DNA of 64,000 nt from Candidatus Saccharimonadota bacterium (GTDB taxonomy: Bacteria; Patescibacteriota; Saccharimonadia; Saccharimonadales; Saccharimonadaceae). Shown here one piece after another: positions 2,182 to 62,963 of the stretch (the first letter of the stretch is position 1; every line of letters starts with the position of its first letter). The position numbers were made by a program, and so were the translations under genes. Where the stretch lies: contig JAQGHF010000003.1 of the NCBI GenBank assembly GCA_028288995.1, positions 1 through 64,000 on the forward strand, written 5' to 3'. The notes beneath the pieces were generated by a model. It saw nothing but the letters and a program-made list of their open reading frames with translations, was not told the DNA's origin and ran no database searches.

Positions 2182-2277
2182 TAGAGCCGTGTAGCCGTTC
2201 ACGACACCAGATCTAGCGCCTCTTGGTTCTTATTTCTTAAAAAGCTTGTGCTTTTACCATTTATATTGTTTACAGTA

Positions 2278-2306
2278 TTGACTTTTTATGCTTTATGTGG
2301 TACATT
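2278..2306 (+). promoter_or_regulatory. Candidate sigma70-type promoter TTGACT-N17-TACATT upstream of ORF 2597
   Basis: Hexamer match and spacing. Confidence 0.4.
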
Positions 2307-2421
2307 TATAACATCATTCACGGGTAAGGTGTGAGAACCTAACCAGGGTGAGGAGGTCATTAACAAGTCAGATCATTACAGTGCATGTCCTGAATGTGTT
2401 TTACATGTTTTAGACGCACTG

Positions 2422-2564
2422 AAAACTATAAGTTTTGATTACTCTTTTGATCAGAAGTGGCGCGTCAGTCCATCTATGTATAGGTAGGTTGGCGCGCTGC
2501 TTCTGACCTTGTGTCTGCAGCTGGGGAGCCTCCCCATTCTTAATTGATCTGGGGTTCTCCCCTA
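2422..2564 (+). promoter_or_regulatory. Structured 5' leader: AAAACT/AGTTTT hairpin, 14-bp stem with two G-U wobbles, and alternating GGGGA/TCCCC blocks
   Basis: Stem 2451-2464 (TCAGAAGTGGCGCG) with 2493-2506 (CGCGCTGCTTCTGA); hairpin TGGGGAGCCTCCCCA; hairpin GGGGTTCTCCCC. Confidence 0.5.
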
Positions 2565-2596
2565 ACCGACACTCGAACAGAAATGAGTACAACATC

Positions 2597-3358
2597 ATGA
2601 CAACCAGTAACGTCAAGTCCGTCAAGCAGACGACCGACGAACTCGTCAAGACTGCCGAGGAAACTCGTGCGCGGCGCAAGCTGCTTGCGACTTCCAAGAA
2701 AAGCAACGAGACGAAGCGCGCAGCGATCGACGAGACAGAGCAACTCGTTAAGGAGGGTACCCATGTGGTACTCATGAGCCTGAACGACAAGCGCGACTCT
2801 CTCGACGCGGCCGACGAGAAGGTGGAGGAAGAGCTGTCTCAGCTCGACCCGAACTACTTCGCGAAGGAACAGGCAACCACCCCGGTGGCTCCCGTTCCCG
2901 AGCCAGTACCGACACCCGAACCCGCTCCTCCGGCTCAGCCGACCGAGCCTGTTCAGGCAACTCCGACTGTGGTTCTCGAACCGCAGCAGGAGATCGGTGT
3001 TCCAGCAACCCAGGTTGTGACCACCGAGCGCCACTATCACTACCTCAACCCGCGAGGATGGGGGTGGCTGCGGTGGCTGCTCGCGATCATCCTGGGCCTT
3101 CTCGGCCTGTTCATCGGTCTTAAAACCGTGAACTGGGTGGTCTCTGACTGGAACAACGACTGGTGGACCTGGTTCGTAGTCATGCTTCAGGTGATCTTCG
3201 GATTCATCTGGATCGTGGCATGGACCGGCGTCGGCTTCTTCGGAGGATCCCTTCTGGGTGACTTCGTCGGTCGTCGTGTCACCACGATTCGTGAAGAGCG
3301 TCGCACCCGCGTCGCTCAACCCGTTCCGCCCGCTGTTCCAACCCCGCCCGCTGCCTAG
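2597..3358 (+). CDS. Hypothetical membrane protein: coiled N-terminus, Pro/Glu/Thr-rich linker, two TM helices, Pro-rich tail
   Basis: ORF track; hydrophobic segments LLAIILGLLGLFIGL and VIFGFIWIVAWTGVGFFGG. Chosen over the antisense 300-aa ORF. Confidence 0.75.
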   Translation: MTTSNVKSVKQTTDELVKTAEETRARRKLLATSKKSNETKRAAIDETEQLVKEGTHVVLMSLNDKRDSLDAADEKVEEELSQLDPNYFAKEQATTPVAPVPEPVPTPEPAPPAQPTEPVQATPTVVLEPQQEIGVPATQVVTTERHYHYLNPRGWGWLRWLLAIILGLLGLFIGLKTVNWVVSDWNNDWWTWFVVMLQVIFGFIWIVAWTGVGFFGGSLLGDFVGRRVTTIREERRTRVAQPVPPAVPTPPAA

Positions 3359-3362
3359 CAGC

Positions 3363-3431
3363 GAGCAGGACGTAGAGTTTGCTCTGTAAGACTTCGGTCT
3401 TACGGTAGGATCGTACCTACCACGTCCTCTC
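3363..3431 (+). other. Perfect four-way-junction (cloverleaf-like) self-complementary element, candidate structured RNA
   Basis: AGGACGT [AGAG-TTTG-CTCT][GTAAGAC-TTCG-GTCTTAC][GGTAGG-ATCGTA-CCTACC] ACGTCCT; four contiguous perfect helices with no unpaired junction bases. Confidence 0.75.
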
Positions 3432-3492
3432 AGCCCATCCACTTCTGGGGCTTTAAAGATTAGAAGCAGAATCCGACCCTTAGGAGGTCAAC

Positions 3493-4644
3493 ATGCACAA
3501 GCGCGTTCGCTGGCTCATCGCCTGCATCGTCGCAATTGTGGCCATCGCGATCGTCGCCGTCGTCCTCAGGGTCGGCATCGATGCTTCTGCGATCGTTAAC
3601 AAGAACGCTGGTTCGGGTACAGTTGCTTTCCACCCGGGAGTCGATAAGACTCCCGCGGATGCATTGTGCACGGACAACACCTACAACGGCATTTCGACCC
3701 AGACTCCCAAGCCTGGTGATCCGAATTCTCGTCAGTTTGCGACCGCCATTTCGAACCCCTACAAGGGTACGACTGACGCGGTCGTCTACACGGAGACTAG
3801 TTCTGAAGTCTGTGGCAACCCCACGGTACTCAAGGAGTCTCTCGACGAGATGACGTTGTGGAAGGGAGTCGTTCCCGGAGCCACCGAAAACATGGCCTGG
3901 ATCAATGAGATCCAGAAGTACATCACGAGCCACAAGCTTGGACTCGATCAGTTCTCCGGAACGACCGATGCGAGCAAGAAACTCGTGGTGAGTCCCCTGT
4001 ATCAGAAGTACGCCGGATGGGTTAACACCGTCCTGCTTCGCTTCAATGCCGAAGGCCTGCAATCGCTGGTCTCGACGCGAAACTGGGAACTGCCTGCAAC
4101 CGTCACTCCAGGGATTCAGCCCACCGCCGTTCAGTCGGCGGCTCCAGATGACAAGCCCTCATGGGTGCGTACTCTGCGAGACAAGAACGCCACGTGCCTC
4201 TACCGAATCGGCTTCAACGCCGAGGACAAGAGAATCGAGGTGTTCCCCTGTGCTGTTCCCCCCACGCCGGGTACGCCGCCAACGAGTCACCCGACTCCGA
4301 AGCCAACCCCGACACCCACGCCGACGCCGACGCCAACGCCGAGCTGCCCTCCCGGGAATTTGATTCCCGACTGTGCACCGAAGCCGGCCGACCCACATCA
4401 GTGGATCGCACCGTCAGGCAAGCCCACGGCACCGGCACCGTCTGGAGCACCCACTTCAACGGGTGACCCAGTAGCAACCACCCACACGGGTGGTGGCGGT
4501 GTCGTTGACAACTCTGGAACCAGCAAGCCCGGATCAGAAACAGGAACCACCTCCCCTGGTGTTACTCCTGCTCCGACCACTCCCGCGACTCCCCCTGTTA
4601 ACCAGGGTGGAGACAACGGAGCTGGTGATCCTGGCGGGTTCTAA
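3493..4644 (+). CDS. Hypothetical secreted/anchored protein with N-terminal TM helix and PT-repeat / Gly-Pro-rich tail
   Basis: ORF track; AGGAGGT Shine-Dalgarno at about 3482; N-terminal TM helix; PTPTPTPTPTPT run. Confidence 0.8.
   Translation: MHKRVRWLIACIVAIVAIAIVAVVLRVGIDASAIVNKNAGSGTVAFHPGVDKTPADALCTDNTYNGISTQTPKPGDPNSRQFATAISNPYKGTTDAVVYTETSSEVCGNPTVLKESLDEMTLWKGVVPGATENMAWINEIQKYITSHKLGLDQFSGTTDASKKLVVSPLYQKYAGWVNTVLLRFNAEGLQSLVSTRNWELPATVTPGIQPTAVQSAAPDDKPSWVRTLRDKNATCLYRIGFNAEDKRIEVFPCAVPPTPGTPPTSHPTPKPTPTPTPTPTPTPSCPPGNLIPDCAPKPADPHQWIAPSGKPTAPAPSGAPTSTGDPVATTHTGGGGVVDNSGTSKPGSETGTTSPGVTPAPTTPATPPVNQGGDNGAGDPGGF
4302..4341 (+). repeat. Tandem hexanucleotide-like repeat (CCGACGCCNACG) encoding Pro-Thr
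   Basis: Direct reading: ccaaccccgacacccacgccgacgccgacgccaacgcc. Confidence 0.7.
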
Positions 4645-4649
4645 ACCCA

Positions 4650-4684
4650 GGTGGGCGCGCAGCCTTAAAAACTGCGCGCCCACC
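4650..4684. terminator. 13-bp perfect GC-rich hairpin downstream of ORF 3493-4644, no U-tract
   Basis: GGTGGGCGCGCAG-CCTTAAAAA-CTGCGCGCCCACC. Confidence 0.6.
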
Positions 4685-4716
4685 GCTACTACTTATAGCT
4701 TTAAGTCGTTCAAACC

Positions 4717-4788
4717 GAGGAGTCTTACTCGCAGATGTGTGATTTATTTCACTATTCGCTTGAGTTTGACTCCTCGTGAGTCCTTTTT
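4717..4788 (+). promoter_or_regulatory. Alternative-pairing element: GAGGAGTC/GACTCCTC versus GACTC/GAGTC followed by CTTTTT
   Basis: Complementarity read from sequence; either a terminator of the upstream unit or attenuator-like. Confidence 0.4.
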
Positions 4789-4941
4789 GTTGATGTTCGC
4801 ATCCACCTTGGATTCGGACATGCACATGCAATGATCTGATTTGATAATGTTAACAATCCGGCAGTAATGTTTTCACACCCGTTCATAACTTATTAATAAC
4901 TTTGATTTCATCTGCGAGATAAATCAAAAAAAGGAGATCAT

Positions 4942-6282
4942 ATGAGCAAATTAACTTCACTCATTCGTCGTGCTCCTAAGCGTTTTAGCGCTGTCGTTGC
5001 TATGGTTGCTGCTGCAATCATTATCCCAACTGCAGTACTTGCTTGGGGACCAGACCGTCCAACGTTCACAATTGCACACCCTGCAGGCTACGTTACTTTT
5101 AACTCAATCACCGACAACCCAGTTCAAGGTGACGAACGAAACTTCGTTCAAGTAAAAGACGCATCTGCAAGTAACAGTACTTACTCAGAGAATGCTTCGC
5201 TGACTCCAGGTAAGCAGTACACAGTATTCGTTTACTACCACAACAACGCAGCAAGCAACCTTAATGCCAGTGGCATTGGTGTTGCTCACGGTGCTTACAT
5301 AAAGGCACAAATCCCTGCAGTCGTTGCAAAGGGTAGTACTGGAACGAAAGCCGTCGGCTACGTCGGTGCAGCAAACGCAACACCAACTGAAGTATTTGAC
5401 GACGTCACTTTCAGCAACTCAACCGCTGGTGACATCGCACTTCGTTACGTTCCTGGATCTGCAAAGATCTACAACAAGGGTGCGACTAACGGTTCAACCC
5501 TTCCAGACAGCATTGTTACGACTGGAACACCTCTTGGGTACAACGCCCTTGATGGTACAGTTCCTGGTTGTAATGACTACGCTGGTTACGTTACTTTCAA
5601 CATTACCGCTGACCAATCTAACTTCGACTTGCAAAAGCAAGTTCGTGTTGCTGGTACAACGGCATGGTCAGAAAGCGTTAACGCAGCACCTGGTACGACT
5701 GTAGAGTATCAACTTACCTACAAGAACACTGGTACAACTGAACAGAACAACGTCGTTCTTAAGGACACACTCCCTACGAACCTTTCATATGTTGCAGGTT
5801 CTACCTACCTAAAGAACGTCAGTAACCCAACACCTAAGCTCATTAACGACACCTTGACAACGAGTACTGGTATTAATATCGGTAACTATGCGCCAAACTC
5901 TGTCGCTTACGTAAAGTTTAGTGCAAAGGTTGCGAGCGAGACAGCACTTAGCTGTGGTACATCAACACTTCACAACGTTGCAACTGTTGAAACTAACAAC
6001 GGTTCAAAGCAAGATAGTGCAGATGTTGTTGTGGCAAACCCTAAAGACTGTGCCCCAGGTACAATCAACGTTTGTCAGTTAAGTACAAAGACAATTGTTA
6101 ACATTAAGGAATCCGACTTTGATGCTTCAAAGTACTCTAAGGACCTTTCTGTTTGTACAACAACCCCACCCGAACTACCACGCACTGGTATGTCAGAAAA
6201 CATTGTTGCCGTTATTGGTCTTGGTGCCATTGTTGCAAGCGTTGCTTATTACATCGCTAGCCGCCGTGCACTGAACCAGTAA
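4942..6282 (+). CDS. Secreted DUF11-type repeat surface protein with C-terminal LPRTG sorting-like signal
   Basis: Signal peptide; TTVEYQLTYKNTGTTEQNNVVLKDTLPTNLSYVAGS motif of DUF11-like domains; C-terminus LPRTGMSENIVAVIGLGAIVASVAYYIASRRALNQ; strong SD aaaaaaggaga. Confidence 0.85.
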   Translation: MSKLTSLIRRAPKRFSAVVAMVAAAIIIPTAVLAWGPDRPTFTIAHPAGYVTFNSITDNPVQGDERNFVQVKDASASNSTYSENASLTPGKQYTVFVYYHNNAASNLNASGIGVAHGAYIKAQIPAVVAKGSTGTKAVGYVGAANATPTEVFDDVTFSNSTAGDIALRYVPGSAKIYNKGATNGSTLPDSIVTTGTPLGYNALDGTVPGCNDYAGYVTFNITADQSNFDLQKQVRVAGTTAWSESVNAAPGTTVEYQLTYKNTGTTEQNNVVLKDTLPTNLSYVAGSTYLKNVSNPTPKLINDTLTTSTGINIGNYAPNSVAYVKFSAKVASETALSCGTSTLHNVATVETNNGSKQDSADVVVANPKDCAPGTINVCQLSTKTIVNIKESDFDASKYSKDLSVCTTTPPELPRTGMSENIVAVIGLGAIVASVAYYIASRRALNQ

Positions 6283-41633: not shown

Positions 41634-41768
41634 TCAGCTTGGTGATTGAGAGGGTTCAAGTTGGGTACGAGACGCAAGGTCCTTCTCACGCTCACGCCTT
41701 ACCCTATGAAGAGAAAGCTTTGCGAGTGAGTTATACGGCACTTTAGTGAAAATGAGAACCTTACTCAT
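41634..41768 (-). CDS. Possible 44-aa basic protein whose ATG lies in a perfect hairpin
   Basis: MSKVLIFTKVPYNSLAKLSLHRVRREREKDLASRTQLEPSQSPS; no convincing spaced SD. Confidence 0.3.
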   Translation of the reverse strand: MSKVLIFTKVPYNSLAKLSLHRVRREREKDLASRTQLEPSQSPS

Positions 41769-41805
41769 CTCTATCACTTCAATAATTTGAAGTGATAGAG
41801 ATGAG
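41764..41805. repeat. Perfect 19-bp inverted repeat with 4-nt loop
   Basis: CTCATCTCTATCACTTCAA-TAAT-TTGAAGTGATAGAGATGAG. Confidence 0.95.
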
Positions 41806-41849
41806 AGCAGAGGAGATGAGACGCCTGCACTCACCTCCCCGCCGGGGGT

Positions 41850-62862: not shown

Positions 62863-62925
62863 GCGGACAGGAGCCTTTCCTGTCCGCACCAAACTCCATT
62901 TATAAAAATGAAGCTTGGTGCGGAC
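62863..62925 (+). other. Two overlapping, mutually exclusive hairpins downstream of the ORFan
   Basis: GCGGACAGGA-GCCTT-TCCTGTCCGC (62863-62887) and GTCCGCACCAA...TTGGTGCGGAC (62882-62892/62915-62925) share GTCCGC. Confidence 0.8.
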
Positions 62926-62931
62926 TCAATA

Positions 62932-62963
62932 AAAAAAGCACTCAGTTATATGAGTGCTTTTTG
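62932..62963 (-). terminator. Bidirectional terminator, AAAAAGCACTC-AGTTATAT-GAGTGCTTTTT
   Basis: Stem flanked by A-run and T-run downstream of grpE. Confidence 0.85.

Follow-up and report, generated by a model that had tools for sequence, protein, structure and literature searches.

A perfect four-way junction between two GC-rich open reading frames of a Saccharimonadota genome is probably one part of a folded, end-closed bicistronic message

What is a perfectly paired four-way junction doing between two GC-rich open reading frames of a bacterial chromosome? The element lies in the first 64,000 nucleotides of contig JAQGHF010000003.1 from a Candidatus Saccharimonadota bacterium, a stretch that we refer to as the window. 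Analysis of positions 3363 to 3431 with RNAfold reproduced the four perfect helices (7, 4, 7, and 6 bp) with zero unpaired junction bases that the first-pass annotation had described at 3367 to 3428, together with the GAG/CTC extension over a 1-nt bulge outside the closing helix, P1. P1 is the 7-bp helix AGGACGU/ACGUCCU, and the inner arms are a 4-bp AGAG-UUUG-CUCU hairpin, a 7-bp GUAAGAC-UUCG-GUCUUAC hairpin, which carries the UUCG tetraloop noted earlier, and a 6-bp GGUAGG..CCUACC helix. The fold has a minimum free energy (MFE) of -33 kcal/mol and a z-score of -4.66, with 0 of 200 shuffles as good. The structure was likewise better than larger sets of shuffled controls, as a four-way junction free of unpaired bases was formed by 0 of 4,000 dinucleotide shuffles of the element and equal stability was reached by 1 of 4,000. 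In the background, such junctions appeared in 9 of 100,000 shuffles and in 1 of 2,500 real windows of the region; z-scores of -4.5 or lower were seen in 0.8% of background windows, and, ranked by energy, the junction falls within the top 0.3% of windows of 69 nt. The GC-rich block from 1.3 to 4.7 kb holds several folds that are as stable as the junction or more so, which was a first hint that the junction is not alone.

The two neighboring genes, ORF1 and ORF2, are 60% GC in a region of about 45% and have no Pfam or NCBIfam family above cutoff, in agreement with their earlier description as GC-rich ORFans. The reported lack of a tRNA signature was also borne out, since Rfam models locate seven tRNAs in the window and none at the junction, and a tRNA or tRNA-like RNA was rejected because no covariance model with T and anticodon arms matched. 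No terminator site was called at 3363 to 3431 and the sequence continues CUCAGCCC, with no U-tract, as first stated; an intrinsic terminator was rejected on these grounds. Rfam searches at gathering and permissive thresholds gave no match at the element, and none was obtained in 2270 to 3500 up to E=1. We rejected a known Rfam family or riboswitch, as no curated covariance model matched in the operon or at the corresponding gaps of relatives. A discrete small RNA is not suggested either, because the element follows a stop codon and precedes an SD sequence inside the transcript of an operon. This predicted unit consists of a leader, ORF1, the gap, ORF2, and a 3' hairpin (approximately 2340 to 4850), and its features are as follows.

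2278 to 2306, + strand: promoter-like site TTGACT-17-TACATT with TG before the second hexamer (consensus scan; the stretch before the leader is conserved among members of the genus)
2364 to 2389, + strand: 5' closing arm CAAGTCAGATCATTACAGTGCATGTC, pairing with the 3' arm (one inverted pair per genome; covariation in 20 genomes)
2440 to 2589, + strand: closing helix on the ORF1 SD region, TACTC (2440 to 2444) with GAGTA (2585 to 2589), around the leader hairpin and another branched domain; the helix is weak in the window itself
2451 to 2507, + strand: long covarying leader hairpin (double changes in 9 species)
2597 to 3358, + strand: ORF1, a membrane protein that begins coiled-coil-like, is P-rich in its middle part, and has hydrophobic segments at the C-terminal end; family "type A," of sporadic occurrence
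3367 to 3428, + strand: perfect four-way junction, P1 of 7 bp and arms of 4, 7, and 6 bp (fold, shuffles, pair probability)
3433 to 3466, + strand: H-type pseudoknot, S1 3433-3436/3448-3451 and S2 3442-3446/3462-3466 (covariation in 5 genomes)
3475 to 3489, + strand: hairpin GACC..GGTC holding the ORF2 SD, GGAGG (sequence; equivalents in relatives)
3493 to 4644, + strand: ORF2, a secreted or membrane-anchored P-rich protein (codon-position substitution pattern, synonymous-shuffle z-score)
4650 to 4684, + strand: perfect 3' hairpin of 13 bp immediately behind ORF2, lacking a U-tract (equivalents in relatives, shuffles)
4716 to 4776, + strand: second 3' hairpin, GAGGAGTC..GACTCCTC
4817 to 4843, + strand: 3' closing arm GACATGCACATGCAATGATCTGATTTG, pairing with 2364 to 2389 at a probability of up to 1.0 in the whole-transcript fold
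4942 to 6282, + strand: downstream conserved surface protein with a DUF11 repeat and an LPXTG anchor, normal GC

The exact junction was found in the window genome only, where it is single copy (836 kb), and was absent from every other genome examined; support for its three inner arms is thus a single-sequence fold from one genome. When the element was searched at the DNA level against 60 relatives, only its 3' half was matched, in G004, at 74%. When the predicted 2,548-nt transcript (2313 to 4860) was folded without constraint, the junction had a mean pair probability of 0.82; P1 was paired differently in the MFE structure and was retained in the centroid. The energy models used ignore pseudoknots and proteins.

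We therefore turn to the ORF1-ORF2 gap of relatives. Ten operons have the ORF1 family of the window, and all ten have a structured gap, of about 102 to 169 nt in the nine that could be measured, the tenth (G006) being broken by Ns; gaps in operons with other ORF1 families are mostly 10 to 30 nt. G465 has a closing helix GGACGUA/UACGUCC around one long branched arm, and closing helices around two hairpins are present in G459 (GGACGUG/CACGUCC), G475 (GGGCGUG/CACGUCC), and G006 (GGGUAUG/CAUACCC). A P1 of GGACGU/ACGUCC is common to the window, G465, and G459, the interiors of which differ. G462 has a 12-bp hairpin, and the gaps of G045 and G057 each fold in a different way, outside both of the subclasses described here, that of G057 with another pseudoknot recognized by eye. 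On the 3' side of the 5' domain, an H-type pseudoknot occurs in the window, G004, G050, G465, and G462. Its stem is GYCC/GGGRC and its loop helix varies (CUUCU/AGAAG, CCCUU/AAGGG, CUCUU/AAGAG, or CCCCU/AGGGG, with one mismatch in G004). In the alignment of these five genomes, 97.8% of cells in the 9 pairs are paired, and each of the four pairs that vary does so through double changes; covariation was 0.444 versus 0.228 for shuffles and at most 0.244 for slid versions, and 1 of 500 shuffles did as well on the covariation score. The second subclass comprises three relatives, in which the closing helix P1 and P3 have 100% of cells paired and 6 pairs with double changes, against 0 to 1 such pairs in slid versions; the two alignments comprise only 5 and 3 sequences, and the shuffle statistics ignore relatedness. 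Since interiors vary while the closing helix and pseudoknot recur, the 5' domain appears to be a plug-in part, of which the four-way junction of the window is one version.

The hairpin that holds the ORF2 SD also differs in its stem among relatives (GACC/GGUC in G004, G465, and G462; ACACC/GGUGU in G050; CACC/GGUG in G045). Whole-gap z-scores are modest, with a mean of -2.1 and two gaps near zero; coding pieces of the same operons score as low (mean z-score of -2.3), and the rest of the window is at about -0.3. Separately, the gaps of loci L092, L093, and L094 (the last in G006) contain an invariant UAGGAGCCUAG able to pair with the SD region GGAGGUUCU, and this pairing is a possible on/off switch in the second subclass. 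A pattern scan of genome contigs, able to match only the G462-like form, gave 26 matches, about the number estimated by chance, of which L102 alone was recognizably true. A tRNA-like reading of the gaps in G050, G459, and G006, which have an adjacent T-arm-like hairpin, was dropped, as it had no covariance-model support.

The operon is a chromosomal single-copy locus in a 369-kb contig. ORF1 and ORF2 encode products of 253 and 383 amino acids, and third codon positions concentrate substitutions in most of the species pairs compared, indicating that both are protein coding. The downstream surface protein was matched in 125 of 151 genomes of the family. Relatives have the same locus layout with other ORF1 and ORF2 families; the families of G050 and G057 contain one genome each, and a protein scan of the genome contigs with ORF1 confirmed no relative. 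Loci L057 (G015) and L061 (G014) have near-identical leaders and flanks around unrelated ORF1 and ORF2 families, and by sequence comparison this difference is a cassette exchange at the surface locus. Runs of N lie within the GC-rich folded cassettes of L094 (G006) and L063 (G010), as if assembly fails there, and loci with folded cassettes may be underrepresented in metagenome-assembled genomes. At L075 (G248), an ORF upstream of the operon has a start resembling a serine recombinase, an observation that bears on the DNA-site explanation considered below.

The larger object at this locus, which the first-pass annotation missed, is a predicted folded operon with closing arms. Inverted arms of about 26 bp, 1.2 to 2.6 kb apart (about 2.4 kb in the window), close the unit in 20 genomes, with at most one arm pair per genome and no further copies. 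In these genomes, 337 of 340 arm core cells are paired, two columns exchange C-G and U-A, and the -1 pair is G·U in 14, A-U in 5, and G-C in 1; the G·U evidence rests mainly on that one column. The orientation of the unit relative to the downstream surface gene was constant in the inspected loci that contain this gene. Within the 5' arm, CAGTGC (2379 to 2384) can alternatively pair with GCACTG (2416 to 2421), a local hairpin present in most leaders; because it uses bases of the 5' arm, the local and end-to-end pairings compete. Farther into the leader, 17 of the 22 pairs of the long hairpin show double changes across nine species (0 of 500 shuffles). A partner for the ORF1 SD, about 90 to 210 nt before the ORF1 start and mostly 115 to 160 nt upstream, was found in 19 of 20 genomes; the pairing beats shuffles in roughly half of them, and the 5 bp of the window are not above chance. 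Directly 3' of ORF2, perfect or near-perfect hairpins of 11 to 17 bp, varied in sequence and free of a U-tract, occur in 16 of 22 operons (0 of 200 shuffles each). The unconstrained fold of 2313 to 4860 includes the closing arms, the leader hairpin, the 3' hairpins, and most of the junction.

The coding sequences are predicted to be folded as well. Against shuffles of synonymous codons, which preserve protein and codon usage and not dinucleotides across codon borders, the mean z-score was -6.3 for ORF2 (17 operons, down to -11.5) and -3.3 for ORF1, compared with -0.6 for 12 control genes; the values for the window itself are -4.7 (ORF1) and -4.2 (ORF2). With shuffling confined to 50-codon blocks, the sense and antisense strands gave -5.6 versus -3.6 for ORF2 (P = 0.0026) and -3.1 versus -2.0 for ORF1 (P = 0.011), and this stronger excess on the sense strand points to RNA. 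Compensatory double changes at predicted coding pairs exceeded partner-permuted nulls in most, not all, comparisons among three species pairs (for example, 5 versus 1.3, P = 0.003, and 12 versus 5.7, P = 0.004). Other sequences in and near the locus also fold strongly. The surface-protein gene beats synonymous shuffles at normal GC (mean z-score of -3.2 in 5 genes, that of the window and relatives), as does a small, divergent, GC-rich gene upstream (1359 to 1769, - strand; z-score of -3.4); similar divergent genes in G462, G465, and G014 have weaker signals. Elsewhere in the window, 62870 to 62950 and 41730 to 41830 form extremely stable folds (z-scores of about -6 to -10).

The original proposal of a selected RNA fold that is not a terminator is supported for the gap as a class, on the basis of pseudoknot and closing-helix covariation in relatives, sense-strand G·U pairs, and the sense-strand folding excess. 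The exact junction was found in no other genome examined, and conservation in relatives is a property of the covarying gap and not of the junction. The other half of the proposal, a DNA cruciform, is disfavored, as relatives carry pseudoknots or other folds at the site and the strand bias favors RNA.

These observations suggest, with a probability that we put at about 0.6, that the junction forms the 5' domain in a structured leader of ORF2 inside a compact, translation-throttled bicistronic message, in which folding extends over the whole length and a long-range stem joins the 5' leader to the region after ORF2. The gap would serve as the leader of ORF2 in the order branched domain closed by P1, pseudoknot, and SD hairpin. 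The fold would make the message compact, nuclease resistant, and long-lived, and translation would occur only once the ends or SD helices open, by processing or ribosome traffic, at a rate set by helix opening. The junction may insulate ORF2 initiation from ORF1 and keep the gap compact and not a weak spot. As the local 5' hairpin and the closing stem share bases, a folding order in which the local hairpin forms first and the end-to-end stem later is plausible.

We weighed this model against four others. Long stalks surround the rRNAs in pre-rRNA, and the closing stem could mainly serve protection or processing, as an RNase III-type stalk parting the ORF1-ORF2 message from the surface-protein message while hairpins shield the ends. 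Like such a stalk, the long-range stem encloses a large folded RNA, its size and span are comparable, and strong 3' hairpins lack a U-tract; however, the enclosed RNA is an mRNA, and the proposal leaves the folding of the coding regions unexplained. We consider it unlikely.

Still less probable, in our estimation, is that the arms act at the DNA level, as terminal inverted repeats or recombination sites, with hairpins aiding cassette exchange at a hypervariable surface locus and RNA structure a by-product. Inverted repeats do flank the unit, as at a DNA transposon or inversion site, the arms of a DNA site would likewise stay mutually matched, ORF1 families are sporadic, and G014 and G015 carry unrelated ORF1 and ORF2 within shared leaders and flanks. 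However, neither multiple copies nor both orientations were found, the unit having one orientation wherever the locus includes the downstream surface gene; moreover, the -1 pair of the arms is mostly G·U, the folding excess is stronger on the sense strand, and pseudoknots and SD-centered helices have no DNA role. An equally doubtful proposal limits the role of the gap to ORF2, as a ligand-sensing riboswitch or a leader that binds a protein, and treats the other folding as unrelated. The gap does resemble translational riboswitches and ribosomal-protein leaders in placing a pseudoknot and SD hairpin before an ORF, one subclass has a conserved AUCCAC pseudoknot loop with the SD hairpin, and the other has the invariant, mutually pairable UAGGAGCCUAG and GGAGGUUCU. 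Unlike them, it has no Rfam family and no known ligand, and its interior is not conserved but swapped wholesale between relatives, unlike a ligand pocket. Chance, a GC-rich block yielding one nice-looking fold, would fit the other stable folds of the block and the unconserved junction but is very improbable given the shuffle counts for such junctions, the covariation of the corresponding gap, and folding beyond composition-preserving nulls.

The model of a folded, end-closed message has partial precedents. In type I toxin mRNAs, a 5'-3' interaction silences the full-length message until its 3' end is trimmed (PMC6733600). Like the hok and aapA mRNAs (PMC6733600), the operon message is predicted to be compact, with ends that pair (covarying arms in 20 genomes and the whole-transcript fold, for predicted ends) and a local 5' hairpin that competes with the end-to-end stem. 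For the SD, a partner at a similar distance is present in 19 of 20 leaders, with pairing above chance in only about half of them and not in the window. In contrast, the operon is about 2.4 kb and bicistronic and encodes two sizable proteins rather than a small hydrophobic toxin, its closing arm is not itself an anti-SD, its coding regions are predicted to be folded, its cassettes are exchanged, and no antisense antitoxin is known. By analogy, it resembles the 5'-3'-closed type I toxin mRNAs and is not a member of them. As in the genome-scale ordered RNA structure (GORS) of RNA viruses, the coding sequence folds beyond synonymous shuffles over kilobases; unlike GORS, the operon is bacterial and chromosomal, not an RNA genome, with a single locus per genome and no replicase in the unit.

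The model suggests that the fold itself controls the making of two fast-changing envelope proteins. We advance more tentatively, at somewhat less than even odds, the idea of a new message class: a hypervariable chromosomal operon whose 2- to 2.5-kb mRNA has been selected, via synonymous codons, untranslated regions, and gaps, for one end-closed compact fold that is kept through protein-cassette swaps, and whose folded RNA may itself, in a protected or even exported state, have as much of a function as the proteins. A limited search of the open-access literature found no description of such a folded operon and nothing relevant on structured RNAs of Saccharibacteria or CPR bacteria. Should the model be true, the thorough folding of some viral RNA genomes would have a match in an mRNA encoded on a bacterial chromosome, in a lineage with small genomes and at a surface-protein locus that is conserved. 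The locus would then offer a natural test of how global mRNA folding sets message lifetime and translation, and of how synonymous sites are retained for the sake of RNA structure when the encoded proteins diverge or give way to others.
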